Below, in pieces: positions 17,671 to 23,988 of a stretch of DNA of 40,092 nucleotides (position 1 is the stretch's first letter; every line of letters begins with the position of its first letter). The translations under genes were made by a program, and so were the position numbers. The notes below the pieces were generated by a model. That model worked only from the letters and a program-made list of their open reading frames with translations. It was not told the DNA's origin and did no database searches. The DNA is from Arthrobacter sp. GTDB lineage: Bacteria > Actinomycetota > Actinomycetes > Actinomycetales > Micrococcaceae. Location: assembly GCF_031179385.1 (NCBI RefSeq), contig NZ_JAPSHV010000013.1, positions 1 through 40,092 on the forward strand, in the 5' to 3' direction.

Positions 17671-20610
17671 CTAGACCCGAGGCTTCTCGCGCATCTCGTA
17701 GGTCTCCACGATGTCGCCTTCCTTGACGTCGTTGAAGGAGCCCAGACCGATACCACATTCGAAGTCCGTCCGGACCTCGGTGGCATCGTCCTTGAAACGG
17801 CGCAGCGACTCGACGGTGAGGTTGTCGCCAACCACGACCCCGTCACGGATGAGACGTGCCTTCGAATTCCTGCGAATTACACCGGAACGAACGATCGAGC
17901 CTGCAATGTTGCCGAACTTGGAGGACCGGAAGACTTCCCGGATCTCGGCAGTGCCGAGTTGCGCTTCCTCGTACTCCGGCTTGAGCATGCCCTTGAGCGC
18001 CAGCTCGATGTCATCAATTGCTGCGTAGATGACCGAGTAGAAGCGCAGGTCCACGCCTTCGCGGTCGGCAAGCTCGGCCACACGCTCAGCGGGCCGAACG
18101 TTGAAGCCGATGATGATCGCGTTGTCGACAGTTGCCAGGTTGACGTCGTTCTGCGTGATGGCACCCACGCCGCGGTGGATGACGCGCAGGGCGACTCCTT
18201 CGCCGACGTCGATCTTGAGCAGCGAGTCCTCGAGGGCTTCGACCGCACCCGAAACGTCACCCTTGAGGATGAGGTTGAGGGTGTCAACCTTGCCCTCGGC
18301 GACGGCCTGGTCGAAGTCTTCCAGGCTGACGCGCTTGCGGCGCTTGGCCAGCGCCGCGTTGCGGTCTGCTGCCTCACGCTTCTCAGCGATCTGACGGGCG
18401 GTGCGCTCATCCGACGTAACCAGGAAGGTGTCGCCTGCACGGGGCACTGTGGACAGACCCAGTACCTGTACCGGACGGGACGGACCCGCCTCCGAGACGT
18501 TTTCGCCGTCCTCGTTGAACATCGCACGGACACGTCCGTGAGCGATACCCGCGACGATGGTGTCGCCGACCGTCAGCGTTCCCGACTGGACCAGCACGGT
18601 CGCTACTGCGCCGCGGCCCTTGTCGAGGTTCGCTTCGATGGCAATTCCGCGGGCGTCCTTGTTCGGGTTGGCTCGCATGTCGAGCGCCGCGTCCGCCGTG
18701 AGCAGTACCGCTTCGAGCAGTTCGTCGATTCCCTCGCCCCGCAGCGCGGAGACGTGCACGAACATGGTGTCGCCGCCGTACTCTTCCGGAACCAGACCGT
18801 ATTCAGTGAGCTGACCCTTGACCTTGTCCGGGTTAGCCCCTTCCTTGTCGATCTTGTTCACTGCAACGACGATCGGAACGCCGGCCGCCTGGGCGTGGTT
18901 GAGCGCTTCAACGGTCTGAGGCATGACGCCGTCATCCGCAGCCACAACCAGCACGGCGATATCGGTCACCTTTGCACCACGGGCACGCATGGCGGTGAAC
19001 GCCTCGTGACCCGGAGTATCGATGAAGGTGATCGCGCGGTTGTCGCCCTCGTGCTCGTGGTCGATCTGGTACGCGCCGATGTGCTGGGTAATGCCGCCGT
19101 GCTCGCCTGCCACGACGTTCGACTTGCGGATCGCATCCAGCAGTCGGGTCTTACCGTGGTCGACGTGGCCCATGACCGTTACCACCGGCGGACGTGCTTC
19201 AAGCTGCGCGTCACCTTCAGCGTCAAGCTCTGCATCCAGGTCGATGTCGAAGTTCTCGAGCAGCTCACGCTCCTCGTCCTCCGGGGACACAACCTGGATC
19301 TTGTAGCCGAGCTCGTCACCGAGAACCTCGAACGTTGCTTCATCCAGCGACTGGGTTGCCGTAGCCATCTCACCGAGGTGGAAGAGCACGGTCACCAGAG
19401 CTGCGGGGTTCGCATCGATCTTCTCGGCGAAGTCAGTGATCGACGAACCGCGGCGCAACCGTACAACAGTGCCGCCGTCGCCGCGGGGAACGCTGACGCC
19501 GCCCAGCGACGGGGCTGACATCTGCTCGAGCTCTTGCCGCTTCGCCCGCTTCGACTTGCGCTGCTTGCCGCGACCGGCACCACCCTTACCGAAGGCACCG
19601 GCAGTACCGCCGCGTCCGCGGCCGCCCTTGCCGAAACCGCCGCCGACCGGCGCTCCGCCGCCGCCACCGGCTCCAGCACCGGCACCAGGGGCTCCACCGG
19701 GACCACGACGAGGTCCGGCACCGGCAGCTCCACCGCGACCGGGAGCCGCGGGGCGCTCGGTACGGTTCGGCATCATGCCGGGAGTCGGCCGGGCTCCGCC
19801 GGCACCACCGGGACGCGGTGCACCGGGGCGGGGTGCTCCCGGACGCGGTGCTCCCGGACGGGGACCGCCCGCACCGGCGGCGGGACGCGGACCGCCCGCT
19901 CCGGCAGCCGGACGGGGTGGTCGCTCGTCATCGCGGCGCCCTCCTGGACGCGGCATGCCCTGCGATGTTGCAAAGGGGTTGTTGCCCGGACGGGGGCCGC
20001 CGGCACGATCGCCGTCACCACGCCCGGATCGGGGCATGCCCTGGGACGTTGCGAAGGGGTTGTTGCCGGGGCGGGGACCGCCTGCACGATCACCACCGGG
20101 GCGAGCTGCTCCGGGGCGTGCCGACGTCGGCCGTGCGGCTGCAGGCTTCGGGCCAGGCTTACGGTCAGTTCCGGAATCGCTGGTGGAACCGGATTCGGGG
20201 GCTGCCGGAGCCTCTGGAGCCGGCTTCGCAGCAGCAGGTGCCTTGAACGCCGGGGCTGCAGGTGCCTGCTCGCGGGGTGCCTCGGGCGCCGGAGTTGCCG
20301 ATGCCGCCGGTGCTGCGGGCTTCTCGGAAACCGGTGCCGGGGCGGGCGCCGGAGCCGGAGCAGCCGGAGCCGGTCGCGGGGACGCTGCTGCCTTGGGCGC
20401 GGGCTGGGGAGCTCGCGCCGGTGTTGATGCGGGCGCCTTGGCGGCTGCCGGCGCATCGGGGAAAGCACCGCGAAGTTTCTTCACGACGGGGGCTTCGATG
20501 GTTGAGGATGCCGACCGGACGAATTCGCCCAGTTCCTGCAGCTTTGCTACTGCATCCTTTGAGGTAATGCCGAGCTCTTTTGCAAGCTCGTGTACGCGGA
20601 CCTTGGCCAC
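17671..20610 (-). CDS. infB: Translation initiation factor IF-2
   Basis: A 979-residue GTPase that brings initiator fMet-tRNA to the 30S subunit and promotes subunit joining. The N-terminal domain ([26 protein letters not shown]) precedes about 300 residues rich in Ala, Pro, Gly and Arg with internal repeats. A basic segment ([13 protein letters not shown]) comes next, then the G domain: GHVDHGKT near residue 480, [13 protein letters not shown]. The remaining IF-2 domains are complete. The long low-complexity N-terminus is usual in actinobacteria. The start is GTG 20610 with AAGGAGAA upstream and a 6-bp hairpin directly before it. The spacer to ylxR is filled by a chain of micro-ORFs. Confidence 0.97.
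19790..20110 (-). repeat. Tandem repeats in the IF-2 low-complexity N-terminal region
   Basis: Two copies of an 81-base unit (19952 and 20033 onwards) encode [18 protein letters not shown] twice. The adjacent stretch encodes repeated [14 protein letters not shown] units (about 19800-19910). Such repeats probably vary in copy number between strains. Confidence 0.75.
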
Positions 20611-20620
20611 ATTTCTCCTT

Positions 20621-20636
20621 CTCGGTCCGCACCGAG
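20621..20636 (-). promoter_or_regulatory. Hairpin directly before the infB ribosome site
   Basis: CTCGGT (20621-20626), loop CCGC, ACCGAG (20631-20636): a perfect 6-bp stem that abuts the AAGGAG ribosome site at 20615-20620. It could affect access of 30S subunits to infB. Confidence 0.4.
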
Positions 20637-20651
20637 TAAGGAGCGAACCGT

Positions 20652-20723
20652 CTAATTCCTACTGCAGACCCCAACCGCCGAAGCAGTTGACGCGCCGATT
20701 GCAGAGCTCAACAGATTGTTCAT
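20652..20723 (-). CDS. Leader micro-ORF E (23 residues) before infB
   Basis: ATG 20723 to TAG 20652-20654. Its ATGA start overlaps the stop of micro-ORF D. The peptide starts [10 protein letters not shown] and ends GVCSRN, with AGT AGG AAT just before the stop. It is the last link of the chain and ends 41 bases before the infB GTG. No Shine-Dalgarno of its own is seen, so translation would depend on reinitiation. Confidence 0.4.
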
Positions 20724-20737
20724 CGTTGGGCACTCAT
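20720..20737 (-). CDS. Leader micro-ORF D (5 residues, MSAQR)
   Basis: ATG AGT GCC CAA CGA TGA. It overlaps the stop of micro-ORF C by ATGA and the start of E by ATGA. It is one copy of a degenerate 14-base repeat. Confidence 0.35.
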   Translation of the reverse strand: MSAQR

Positions 20738-20751
20738 GGCTGGGTACTCAT
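20734..20751 (-). CDS. Leader micro-ORF C (5 residues, MSTQP)
   Basis: ATG AGT ACC CAG CCA TGA. It overlaps both neighbours as ATGA. It is near-identical in DNA to micro-ORF D, so the pair looks like a tandem duplication of a 14-base unit. Confidence 0.35.
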   Translation of the reverse strand: MSTQP

Positions 20752-20762
20752 CGGGTTTCCAT
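20748..20762 (-). CDS. Leader micro-ORF B (4 residues, METR)
   Basis: ATG GAA ACC CGA TGA. It starts on the last base of the stop of micro-ORF A (TGATG) and ends overlapping micro-ORF C (ATGA). Confidence 0.35.
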   Translation of the reverse strand: METR

Positions 20763-20815
20763 CAGTTTTCTGACCCGCTTTCAGGGAGGACGGTGTTCAT
20801 ACAGGACAGCCCCAT
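20762..20815 (-). CDS. Leader micro-ORF A (17 residues) starting at the ylxR stop
   Basis: ATG 20815 overlaps the ylxR stop as TGATG. The peptide begins MGLSCMNTVL and ends SGSEN at TGA 20762-20764. An internal in-frame ATG is at 20800. It is the first link of the relay from ylxR towards infB. Confidence 0.4.
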   Translation of the reverse strand: MGLSCMNTVLPESGSEN

Positions 20816-21093
20816 CAGGAGTTGCCCTGGAGTGTGTGCAGCCAATGTTCCACGCTCTGCGTATCCACCGGGCCCCGAAAGGCGCGGTTGAACGCTTTGC
20901 GTTTGAGCGCGAGCTCCACACAGGACGGCCGGGGGTGCAACCAGGCACCCCTGCCCTCCAGCCGACGGCGAAGATCCACCTCAGCGACGCTGACGCCGCC
21001 ACGGTTAACCGCTGACCATCGAACCAGAGAGACTTGGTCGTCACGGCCCCGGCAACCGATGCAGGTTCGTACCGGCTGGTGGCGTAACGACAT
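20815..21093 (-). CDS. ylxR: YlxR/RnpM-family RNA-binding protein (DUF448)
   Basis: A 92-residue small basic protein of the YlxR fold, with the signature RTCIGCRGRDDQVSLVRW near the N-terminus and KRKAFNRAFRG further on. In Bacillus and relatives such proteins modulate RNase P (RnpM). The usual genomic place between nusA and infB holds here. I choose ATG 21093, which has GGATAGGG upstream, over ATG 21117, which has no ribosome site. A TAGAAT hexamer (21105-21110, minus strand) could be a local -10. The stop is shared with the first leader micro-ORF of infB. Confidence 0.92.
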   Translation of the reverse strand: MSLRHQPVRTCIGCRGRDDQVSLVRWSAVNRGGVSVAEVDLRRRLEGRGAWLHPRPSCVELALKRKAFNRAFRGPVDTQSVEHWLHTLQGNS

Positions 21094-21104
21094 AAGCCCT
21101 ATCC

Positions 21105-21110
21105 ATTCTA
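21105..21110 (-). promoter_or_regulatory. Candidate -10 element upstream of ylxR
   Basis: TAGAAT on the minus strand, 11 bases before the ylxR ATG. It matches the -10 consensus at five of six positions, but no -35 was found. It could give ylxR-infB a promoter separate from rimP-nusA. Confidence 0.3.
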
Positions 21111-21168
21111 GCGCCATGGACGTCGATATGACGCATTGGCAAATTGTCGAGGAAAGTTCCCCGCTGCC

Positions 21169-22140
21169 TCAGGCTCCGGCGGCGTCCGACGCAATGTCGA
21201 TGCGCCATCCGGTCAGCTTCGCTGCAAGCCGCGCGTTCTGGCCTTCCTTGCCGATAGCGAGAGACAACTGGTAGTCAGGCACGACGACACGTGCGCTGCG
21301 GGTTTTCTCATCCGTGATGGTCACTGACGAAACGCGCGACGGTGACAGTGAGCTGGCGATGAAGGTCGCCGGATCATCGCTGTAGTCGACGATGTCGATC
21401 TTTTCGTCGTTGAGCTCATTCATCACCGCGCGAACGCGGGAGCCCATCTCGCCGATGCAGGCACCCTTCGCATTGACGCCCGGAACATGGGCTTTCACCG
21501 CGATCTTGGTGCGGTGGCCGGCTTCCCGCGCCAGCGCCACAATCTCCACGCTCTTGTCCGCGATCTCGGGAACCTCGAGTTCGAAGAGTTTCCGCACGAG
21601 GTTCGGGTGCGACCGCGACAGCGTGATTGACGGACCCTTCATTCCGCGGTGCACGTCGATCACATACGCACGCAGACGGGTTCCGTGGAGGTACTTCTCG
21701 CCGGGGACCTGCTCCGGCGGCGGCAGCAGCGCTTCCACCGATCCAAGATTCACCTGGATCATGTGCGGGTTGTTGCCCTGCTGGATCAGGCCGGCTACCA
21801 GCTCGCCCTCCTTGCCACGGAACTCACCCAGGATGTTGTCGTCCTCGGCGTCGCGCAACCGCTGAAGGATGATCTGACGCGCGGTGCTCGCCGCGATCCG
21901 CCCGAAACCGGTGGGCGTGTCATCGTACTCACCCACTGCTACGCCGTCGTCGTCGACTTCCGTCGCCCAGATGGTGACGTGGCCGGTCCGACGGTCCAGC
22001 TCCGCCCGGGCAATATCCTGTGCACCGGTGGTCTTGTGATACGCAACCAGCAACGCCTGCTCGATCGTTGGGATCAACAGGTCAAGGGGAATTTCACGCT
22101 CGCGTTCAAGTAGCCGCAGAGCGCTCATATCTATGTCCAT
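21169..22140 (-). CDS. nusA: Transcription termination/antitermination factor NusA
   Basis: A 323-residue RNA-polymerase-binding factor that controls pausing, termination and rRNA antitermination. The N-terminal domain ([20 protein letters not shown]) precedes an S1 domain (near 110-190) and two KH domains ([26 protein letters not shown] and [26 protein letters not shown]). The acidic C-terminal repeats of enterobacterial NusA are absent, which is normal for actinobacteria. ATG 22140 is preceded by GAGGAGG. It follows rimP by 30 bases. Confidence 0.97.
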
Positions 22141-22170
22141 TGGGGGCCTCCTCAGCAACCAGCGGTGTAA

Positions 22171-22788
22171 TCAGTCATTGTCGCCGCCGGATTCCTCGGC
22201 ATCAGCGTGGGTGAACTCAACCTGAACGGTACCCTTGCGGATTTGGTCGTAGGGAATCTCCCGGTCTTCACCGAATTTGGGCTTGGTGCCCTTCTTGACG
22301 GTCAAGAGCGGTGTGAGGGAAATCGACTGCTCCTCAGCGGCGATCAACCGCCCCTCAAGTACTTCACCGTCTACCAGCTTTACGTCCACCAGCCGGCCGA
22401 CGTTCCGTCGCCAGTGTCGCGGCTCTGTGAGCGGCCGGGAAACACCCGGCGATGAAACCTCCAGATTGTAGGGACGTCCGTCGTCGCCGGGATCGTTGTC
22501 GAGGGCATTCGAGACGCTCTGCGAAACTTCGGAAATGGTGTCGAGGCTCACTCCCTCAGCGCCGTCGTCCGGTAGGTCGACAACTACGTGCAGTGTCCGG
22601 TGGCTTCCGGCGATGCGGACCTCGACGTCTTCGAGGATCAACTTGTGCTGCTCCACGGTGGGCCGCAGAAAATCCCTCAGCCGCTGGGCTTCAGCTGCGG
22701 CGTTGAGGTGTGCGGGAGTCTCACTACGGCCGTATGCCGGAGCCTTTTGCCTTTCGGCAGTGGTCTGCTTGCCGGACCTAACAGCCAT
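22171..22788 (-). CDS. rimP: Ribosome maturation factor RimP
   Basis: A 205-residue factor needed for 30S maturation. The N-terminal domain contains LEDVEVRIAGSHRTLHVVVD, and VSSPGVSRPLTEPRHWRRN begins the conserved centre. The C-terminal SH3-like domain carries KLVDGEVLEGRLIAAEE. N- and C-terminal extensions are polar and acidic. GGGAGG precedes ATG 22788. It heads the nusA-infB cluster and diverges from a plus-strand gene. Confidence 0.95.
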   Translation of the reverse strand: MAVRSGKQTTAERQKAPAYGRSETPAHLNAAAEAQRLRDFLRPTVEQHKLILEDVEVRIAGSHRTLHVVVDLPDDGAEGVSLDTISEVSQSVSNALDNDPGDDGRPYNLEVSSPGVSRPLTEPRHWRRNVGRLVDVKLVDGEVLEGRLIAAEEQSISLTPLLTVKKGTKPKFGEDREIPYDQIRKGTVQVEFTHADAEESGGDND

Positions 22789-22821
22789 TGCCGCCTCCCG
22801 CTCGATGATCTTGTAGCTACT

Positions 22822-22851
22822 ACCCTAACGACTTTATGACAGGTCGGTGAA
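22822..22851 (-). promoter_or_regulatory. Candidate promoter of the rimP-nusA cluster
   Basis: Minus-strand TTCACC (22846-22851), an 18-base spacer and TAGGGT (22822-22827), 33 bases before the rimP start. Match to consensus is moderate. Confidence 0.3.
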
Positions 22852-22893
22852 TGGCACACCACACGGGTCTCTCGCATGGCATGATGATCGGTT

Positions 22894-23988
22894 GTGACGC
22901 AATCGAATGACCGTTCCGCCACCACCGGCAGCGGCTTCGGTGGAGCAGTTCGGCGTGTCCTGCGGACGGTCGTGCTGATGCTTGTTCTCCTGCTCGTCGC
23001 GTCAATCGGTTTGGTCATCGGCAAGGGTTCTCCGGACCGCGTACCGAGCGCAGAGGAAGTCGCCCTTAGCGGCGCCTCCACCGCGGCCAACGGCCTGGCA
23101 TCCACCGCCACCGCCCTGGAGCGGACAGTACCTGTGACCAACGGCTCGGACTATGCCGAGCTTGCGGAGATGTTCGGGATACATGCCCTCGCGCTCCGGC
23201 CCGCCGGCGCGACGGAATCGCCCTCCCCCTCCGTCTCCCCCGTCGTAAGTTCGACGCCGTCGCCTTCCACCGCGACAACGACGCCGGCACCCTCCCCTGC
23301 TGACCTGCTGGCCGAGCTGACAGCCTCCTATACCGAGAGCTTCGAAGCTGCCGCCACAGTGGAACCGGGCCCTTCCCGCGTCCTGGCGTCGGCGGCAACT
23401 GCGCAATGGCTCCAGAGCCGGGAGCTTGCCGGGCGCCTCGACGCCGCCGTTCCCGGGATTCCGGTGCCCGAAGTGCGCCATGACGACCTCACTGAACCGG
23501 CGTGCCCGCTGGAAACCACTACGTTGGAGGAGCCGGAGCCCGGCCTGGATGGTGCACGGACGGCGGTGCTGGCGGAACAGCGTGCCTCCTATGCGTATGA
23601 GGTGATCGCCGCCCGTGCCGACGATCCCGCACCTTTCCTTCGGCGGATGGCGCAGCACGAGAGCGCAGCCGCCCTGGGTGCCGCCGTACTGGCGCAGCAC
23701 TGCGTCGCCGAGCCGCTCCCGGCAGCCGCCTACGCCCTCGACGACAGCTTCCAGTCGGCGCCCGACGACGCGCTGCGGGAGCTTGAGAGCGGGTTGACAG
23801 TTACCTACGCCGACCTCGTCGGAGTCAGCGCACCGGGACCTGTGCGTGAGTGGGCGCTGCGCCAACTCGTTGAAACGGCCCAGCACCTCGCCGAGTCCGT
23901 GGAAGGAACGTCGCCCAAGGACGCCCCGGGAATACTGCCCGGGATCGACCCGGTCGAGTATCCACGCTTGCCGGAGCCTGCCAGCTAG
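22894..23988 (+). CDS. DUF4439 ferritin-like domain protein, membrane-anchored
   Basis: A 364-residue protein. An N-terminal hydrophobic segment (about residues 25-44, VVLMLVLLLVASIGLVIG) is likely an uncleaved anchor. A Ser/Pro/Thr-rich linker sits near 108-135, and the C-terminal half resembles the DUF4439 four-helix ferritin-like fold (ARTAVLAEQRASYAYEVIAARADD). Whether it binds metal is not clear from sequence. GTG 22894 lacks a Shine-Dalgarno site. It is followed after 9 bases by a kinase gene, and diverges from rimP. Function unknown. Confidence 0.75.
   Translation: MTQSNDRSATTGSGFGGAVRRVLRTVVLMLVLLLVASIGLVIGKGSPDRVPSAEEVALSGASTAANGLASTATALERTVPVTNGSDYAELAEMFGIHALALRPAGATESPSPSVSPVVSSTPSPSTATTTPAPSPADLLAELTASYTESFEAAATVEPGPSRVLASAATAQWLQSRELAGRLDAAVPGIPVPEVRHDDLTEPACPLETTTLEEPEPGLDGARTAVLAEQRASYAYEVIAARADDPAPFLRRMAQHESAAALGAAVLAQHCVAEPLPAAAYALDDSFQSAPDDALRELESGLTVTYADLVGVSAPGPVREWALRQLVETAQHLAESVEGTSPKDAPGILPGIDPVEYPRLPEPAS

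Follow-up and report, generated by a model that had tools for sequence, protein, structure and literature searches.

What function could five minute reading frames have when they fill the space between ylxR and infB, the gene for initiation factor IF2, and when each of them overlaps the next at its stop and start codons? The question arises from an Arthrobacter contig, of which a stretch of 40,092 nucleotides (nt), here called the window, was analyzed; all features described below lie on its minus strand. The original prediction, that five overlapping micro-ORFs join the two genes and that the last one ends 41 nt before the infB start codon, was confirmed letter by letter. The ylxR gene (20815..21117; 100 codons counted from the first ATG) terminates in a TGA at 20817-20815 that overlaps the ATG of micro-ORF 0 at 20815. 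This 17-codon frame (20762..20815), which encodes MGLSCMNTVLPESGSEN, is followed by micro-ORF 1 (20748..20762; METR), micro-ORF 2 (20734..20751; MSTQP), micro-ORF 3 (20720..20737; MSAQR), and micro-ORF 4 (20652..20723; 23 codons, stop codon TAG), and the five junctions from ylxR to micro-ORF 4 read, in order, TGATG, TGATG, ATGA, ATGA, and ATGA. The TAG at 20652 is separated by 41 nt from the GTG at 20610 with which infB (17671..20610) begins, and the infB Shine-Dalgarno site, AAGGAG, occupies 20615..20620. A Shine-Dalgarno-like site, GAAAGCGGGT, is located at 20773..20782, 10 nt 5' of the ATG of micro-ORF 1. The predicted 14-nt step that keeps the overlaps was also present, with starts at 20751, 20737, and 20723; Tandem Repeats Finder returned no row for it.

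The chain had been considered hard to ascribe to chance, and this was borne out. With chains counted anywhere within 260 nt, none of 5,000 dinucleotide shuffles of the window spacer contained an ATG-only chain of five, and when GTG starts were allowed, nine of 5,000 gave at least five ORFs. Among 2,213 flanking control windows, a chain of four occurred in one and a chain of five in none. A chance origin of the chain was rejected by the spacer shuffles, by the flanking windows, and by a comparison of 207 loci. A pattern search of the same genome for three ATGA motifs spaced by 14 nt gave two matches, the present locus and one other (L317, contig C53), and a second spaced ATGA-triple pattern gave no match in that genome.

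The start of infB was located in 36 of 38 genomes sampled from the genus, 391 of 395 from the family, 142 of 149 from the order, 107 of 118 from the class, and 86 of 119 from the phylum, samples that overlap one another. The class includes Streptomyces and Arthrobacter. A total of 207 loci were read as sequence, comprising 36 from the genus, 41 from elsewhere in the family, 81 from elsewhere in the order, and 49 from elsewhere in the class; one locus (L001) was left out as a duplicate of another (L005). A chain, defined as at least three overlapping micro-ORFs with the last stop 25 to 70 nt before infB, preceded infB at 193 of the 207 loci, compared with 164 of 4,140 shuffles. By sample, the chain was present at 36/36 loci of the genus, 33/41 of the family, 75/81 of the order, and 49/49 of the class, and by family, 43 of 44 had it in at least one member and 42 had it in every member. 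The strict chain was missing at 14 loci; a relaxed rule restored at least three ORFs to seven of these and not to the other seven. Five of the six loci of family f4 have a two-ORF version and one has none; the latter (L112), from a genome of 0.8 Mb, lacks the relay, and its five relatives retain two ORFs. Several genera of the window's family have, in place of the last overlap, a stop that precedes the next ATG by 2 nt. Among the best 80 of 523 named loci, 69 had the chain, and 10 of the 11 failures, which belonged to Arthrobacter, Pseudarthrobacter, Paenarthrobacter, and Sinomonas, had a stop at this 2-nt distance from the following ATG, so that the relay at those 10 loci is loosened and not lost.

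The relay takes the form METR-MSTQR-MSAQR-(about 23 codons) in the window's genus, MGTR-MSTQR-MST.. in other families of the order, MSTR-MSTR-MSTPMK in Streptomyces, MSTR-MKSQK-MTRLQVHE in Micromonospora, and MSQP-(GTG)KLNQ-MNARQ in Amycolatopsis. No chain of three was found at 21 loci from other classes, where the position of several infB starts is accurate only to a few codons. A covariance model of the leader (R1) was built from an alignment of 31 loci (A3), to which some of the matched genomes had contributed sequences, and it had a single match in each of 109 of the 118 class genomes; the nine unmatched genomes also lacked a detectable infB start. For 12 of the 109, match and infB positions were found by eye to overlap as expected. 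In the phylum sample, the model matched 11 of 119 genomes, namely, ten members of the class and one marginal case (G682; E = 8.6e-4); the class and phylum searches were run with stricter filters. As judged from these comparisons, this is a leader of infB that is kept across the class as three or four micro-ORFs, with its overlaps, frame steps, and last-stop position persisting while bases and peptides change. Alignment of spacers from relatives thus gave the persistence of start-stop overlaps that had been anticipated, with the exception of the last overlap in several genera of the same family and of f4, reduced to two or no ORFs.

The overlap between ylxR and the first ORF is present in the window as predicted, but it lies outside the conserved element: the TGATG form occurs at only 4 of 36 genus loci, including the window, and one locus (L021) has an ATGA junction with ylxR instead. 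On this comparison, the conserved element is the other four micro-ORFs, 1 to 4, and micro-ORF 0 is not part of it. The copy number of the 14-nt unit varies among close relatives, with three versus four micro-ORFs in L039 and L044 and an extra unit in L122, L123, and L137; the relay seems to expand and contract by tandem units. In family f15 (L142 and L143), there are more overlapping small ORFs with GGCGGGT-like sites upstream of the relay, which suggests a duplicated entry region.

The reading frame is kept along the relay. Of the ATGA-to-ATGA spacings of up to 40 nt, 327 of 362 were equal to 2 modulo 3, compared with 11 of 126 in flanking DNA. Most spacings were 11 or 14 nt; among others of up to 20 nt, the frame was kept in 18 of 22, and among those above 20 nt, where the motifs are not necessarily chain neighbors, in 12 of 43. 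The last two junctions of the 193 chains comprised 379 NTGA overlaps and seven 1-nt overlaps among 386, a count that is not independent of the definition of the chains by these overlaps, at which 14 of the 207 loci fail. GTG replaces ATG as a start in families 6, 19, and 22; GTG starts in families 1 and 31 stand beside or before an in-frame ATG and were not scored as swaps. The codon of the last stop was TAG in 25 families, TAA in 29, and TGA in 14. The peptides drift, with 22 peptides of ORF 1 among 32 distinct sequences and 49 of ORF 2 among 78. A conserved peptide encoded by micro-ORF 4 was unsupported, since the three codon positions of the 23-codon form in the family were about equally variable (entropies of 0.91, 0.91, and 1.02).

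Duplex energies with the anti-Shine-Dalgarno sequence, computed with what we take to be the rRNA tail, distinguished the first conserved micro-ORF from the others. Its energy was -8.2 kcal/mol in the window, with a median of -8.1 kcal/mol (n=189), and values of -5 kcal/mol or lower were reached by 84% of 189 first starts, 10% of 249 middle starts, and 3% of 189 last starts, compared with 25% of 751 random sites; the median for infB was -9.7 kcal/mol. The five loci of f38 have ACG in place of the first ATG, and their frame is opened by an in-frame GTG that has a Shine-Dalgarno site. The stop-start overlaps of 4 nt (NTGA) or 1 nt are those of reinitiation-coupled ORFs, as are the downstream starts without a Shine-Dalgarno site of their own, a feature that is typical of such ORFs and not obligatory. 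A Shine-Dalgarno site at the first conserved start only is expected if the later starts use termination-reinitiation, and the patterns suit a single entry site followed by termination-reinitiation. The predicted termination-reinitiation cascade would fit the overlaps and the single Shine-Dalgarno entry, but its first ORF falls outside the conserved element. From sequence patterns of this kind, we consider it highly probable that the relay is translated in a coupled manner. By eye, the start of micro-ORF 4 lies in the loop of a further hairpin in the window (20704-20735) and in f1 loci (such as GAGTGCGCAACG/CGTTGCGCTC in L003), a hairpin that would be opened by ribosomes translating the preceding ORF.

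The single hairpin that had been predicted to abut the infB ribosome site proved to be a set of competing hairpins. Arm 1 (CGGTTCGC; 20643..20650) begins one base past the last stop and pairs with arm 2 (GCGGACCG; 20623..20630), directly 5' of the infB Shine-Dalgarno site, to form hairpin A, in which the infB site is free. Hairpin B (CTCCTT-A-CTCGGT / ACCGAG-AAGGAG; 20615..20643) joins the Shine-Dalgarno site to the loop of A, excludes hairpin A, and is found mainly in the window's order. Hairpin C consists of arm 2 and arm 3 (GGTCCGC; 20596..20602), the latter running from the last base of infB codon 3 through codon 5, and holds the Shine-Dalgarno site and start codon within its loop. The distance from the last stop to infB had a median of family medians of 43 nt (quartiles, 42 and 45; range, 36 to 56.5). 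Stems of at least 5 pairs starting within 14 nt after the last stop were found in 143 of 152 distinct segments, and 131 of these 143 begin 0 to 4 nt past the stop; some such stem occurred in 1,955 of 2,860 shuffles, of which only 3.3% attained the observed median score. As in attenuators, a leader ORF is placed such that its ribosome would cover one arm, a feature that is weak on its own, and the structures are mutually exclusive, one of them closing the downstream site (A versus B or C, which share arm 2 with A or overlap it); their covariation scores exceeded those of shuffles, and other measures were mixed.

Covariation was compared with 500 shuffles in each case, which do not remove the relatedness among sequences. 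In alignment A2 (40 sequences hand-picked from 75 distinct segments), it was 0.353 for hairpin A (0.216 when shuffled) and 0.228 for hairpin B (0.133 when shuffled), with 0/500 shuffles as high for either. In alignment A3 (31 loci hand-picked from 45 class and order loci, all 45 of which were later aligned and counted whole), hairpin A had values of 0.199 versus 0.162 for the 31 (17/500 as high) and 0.213 versus 0.175 for the 45 (8/500), and hairpin C had values of 0.230 and 0.217, respectively, each versus 0.145 (0/500). Pairs changed on both sides showed no excess over shuffles for A in the 40 sequences or for C. In an alignment-free comparison of each segment's own partner with the partners of other families, A paired more strongly with its own partner in 50 of the 65 segments from the order but in only 26 of the 41 from the class, B was stronger in 44 of 65 order segments and in 14 of 41 outside the order, where B is absent, and C was stronger with its own infB in 118 of 156 segments and, outside the order, in 39 of 44.

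The third arm is also visible in codon choice. Val4 of infB is GTC in 145 of 150 sequences, compared with 329 of 560 for Val further on, and Arg5 is CGC or CGG in 145 of 150, compared with 79 of 150 further on; counted by family, GTC was more frequent at Val4 than further on in 28 of 34 families and less frequent in 3, and CGC/CGG was more frequent at Arg5 in 19 of 31 and less frequent in 1. The third base of Arg5 and its partner in arm 2 were C-G in 19 families, C-C in 3, G-C in 7, and G-G in 1 (Fisher p, 4e-4), in a test that left out families with other bases (e.g., five with T-G). These counts show that arm 2 and the synonymous codons of arm 3 covary. Outside f1, the order had C alone at 34 loci, both hairpins at 14, B alone at 26, and neither at 7 (p = 1.4e-5), and B tends to occur there where C is absent. 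In f1, B and C usually accompany each other (51 loci with both, 15 with C alone, 5 with B alone, and 6 with neither). By the cutoffs of this analysis, 17 of 207 loci had neither B nor C; the helix thresholds were set by the analyst, and one count of hairpin B demanded 3 nt of GGAG and so undercounted f1.

Predicted folds place the closed state on average 5 to 7 kcal/mol below the open one, and under a strict criterion, the infB site was nearly always closed at equilibrium, with arm 1 masked or not. Masking of arm 1 made strict opening lower in 8 of 43 families and higher in none, with tiny effects, and it made Shine-Dalgarno accessibility lower and higher, respectively, in 20 and 3 of 39 in f1, 16 and 17 of 69 in the order, and 6 and 9 of 45 in the class. 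Since accessibility shifts both ways and the closed fold dominates, the sign of control is not fixed by folding.

We propose that the leader subjects IF2 synthesis to feedback from reinitiation, a step that depends on IF2. A ribosome would enter at micro-ORF 1 or from ylxR and pass along the relay by termination-reinitiation, and because every handover would use fMet-tRNA and IF2, arrival at the last stop would drop steeply at low IF2 activity. A ribosome with a stop codon in its A site covers roughly the next nine nucleotides, and a ribosome on the last stop would thus mask arm 1, whereupon arm 2 would pair with arm 3 or hairpin B would take the infB site, giving the closed state. With few ribosomes arriving, the pairing of arm 1 with arm 2 would form first during transcription and leave the infB site open. 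The feedback would be negative, plentiful IF2 closing infB and scarce IF2 leaving it open. Control of infB by the leader is likely, and the chances are even that IF2 or initiation activity is the signal; the negative sign is the least certain step, to which we give somewhat less than an even chance. As a whole, the feedback reading is moderately favored. The earlier suggestion that IF2 output could respond to reinitiation is plausible because reinitiation in Escherichia coli depends on IF2, perhaps more than de novo initiation does (PMC2268962).

Two other readings share the relay with this feedback, and the confidence assigned to the three therefore overlaps. In the first, the cascade would deliver ribosomes to infB, the translation of which would follow the flux through ylxR and the micro-ORFs: pairing of arm 2 with arm 3, or hairpin B, would shut the infB site unless ribosomes arrive, and those leaving the last stop would slide over about 42 nt, unwinding the structure on the way, and reinitiate at infB. 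The greater stability of the closed state and the nearly fixed distance of the last stop from infB (median, 43 nt) are consistent with such delivery, as are the 84 of 193 chains in which ylxR, with its frame identified by motif, terminates at the stop of a micro-ORF, the 32 of 193 in which the ylxR stop overlaps the first start, and the ppe2 leader, in which uORF translation is required for the downstream ORF (PMC11260477). However, the Shine-Dalgarno site of infB is itself strong (median, -9.7 kcal/mol), the gap of about 42 nt contains a conserved hairpin, unlike the tight overlaps inside the relay, and the conserved pairing of arms 1 and 2, which frees the infB site, would be left unexplained. 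We consider delivery of ribosomes to infB unlikely, though a serious competitor.

In the second, ribosomes stalled on the micro-ORFs by inhibitors of initiation or termination, or by slow decoding before a stop, would shift the pairing of the arms, and infB would be induced by antibiotics or starvation and not by the level of IF2. An actinobacterial uORF attenuator is used by whiB7/wblC (PMC10727445, PMC7157823), and a WhiB7 ChIP peak lies upstream of infB in Mycobacterium abscessus (PMC10727445), but the micro-peptides vary between lineages, which argues against peptide- or codon-specific stalling; a stress sensor is improbable. A reading of the stops as a three-frame catcher or insulator, which would end ribosomes overrunning ylxR and keep the infB site clear, with the starts secondary, is more doubtful still: the last three stops of 193 of 193 chains occupy all three frames (automatically so for NTGA overlaps) and the position of the ylxR stop varies among loci, yet stops alone would suffice, the starts and the first Shine-Dalgarno site are retained, as are GTG-for-ATG swaps, and ylxR ends upstream of the chain in 68 of 193. 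Least credible is an untranslated conserved RNA or DNA element in which the ATG and TGA triplets are incidental to repeats, for although the family conserves the block at the nucleotide level, CGGGU/ACCCG complementarity can be seen by eye around the first start, and only 12 of 43 ATGA spacings above 20 nt keep the frame, the short frame steps, start and stop synonyms, and Shine-Dalgarno pattern are specific to translation, and no Rfam family matched.

Among known systems, the translational attenuators of ermC and cat are those in which a ribosome, by its position on the leader ORF, determines access to the downstream Shine-Dalgarno site, through peptide- and drug-specific stalling on a single leader ORF; the infB leader would follow the same ribosome-position logic but is a relay of micro-ORFs with drifting peptides. 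In infC (IF3; AUU start) and prfB (RF2; frameshift), the factor's own reaction sets its level, and in the infB leader, the factor would be IF2 and the reaction serial reinitiation. The nearest experimental precedent is the uORF junction in the B12 riboswitch leader of Mycobacterium tuberculosis ppe2, where an AUGA overlap works by termination-reinitiation and the downstream ORF has no Shine-Dalgarno motif; it has one junction compared with two to four in the infB leader, and ppe2 is controlled via a B12 aptamer, without a three-arm switch on a translation-factor gene (PMC11260477). The whiB7/wblC leaders are likewise actinobacterial and have ribosomes that choose between RNA hairpins, but they combine one uORF with a transcription terminator (PMC10727445, PMC7157823), whereas a search of 20500-21400 of the window revealed no terminator-like site, which sets the infB leader apart from transcription attenuators. 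The rimP-leader of rimP-nusA-infB operons, a cis-element of the same operon, has its terminator in front of rimP, and the present leader lies directly before infB (PMC2965389).

A known Rfam element was ruled out, the Rfam 15 covariance models giving no match up to E = 1 in 20000-22900 of the window. No sigma-70 promoter was found in 20500-21400; in M. abscessus, the WhiB7 peak directly upstream of infB hints at a separate infB promoter in some lineages (PMC10727445). No published description of such an infB leader was found in the open-access literature, screened by title and start of abstract, a body that leaves most subscription papers outside. Ribosome profiling of M. tuberculosis revealed 48 ORFs consisting of only a start and a stop codon, and the main text of that study makes no mention of infB (PMC9094748), nor do the accessible sections of a review of translational coupling (PMC12548453).

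The element stands before infB in nearly every sampled genome of the class, and its frames of 4 to 6 codons, below the size that ordinary gene finders report, may persist class-wide for the act of translation and not for their peptides. No study of IF2 set against ribosome supply in the class was found in the open-access literature, and the leader could provide a natural read-out of reinitiation efficiency. That it is an old self-gauge of IF2, in which serial reinitiation counts the activity of IF2 and fMet-tRNA and the three-arm switch reads out the count, is a tentative reading. If true, this self-gauge would be the IF2 counterpart of the autoregulation circuits of IF3 and RF2, with its third arm residing in the synonymous codon choice of infB in almost all of the class members sampled.
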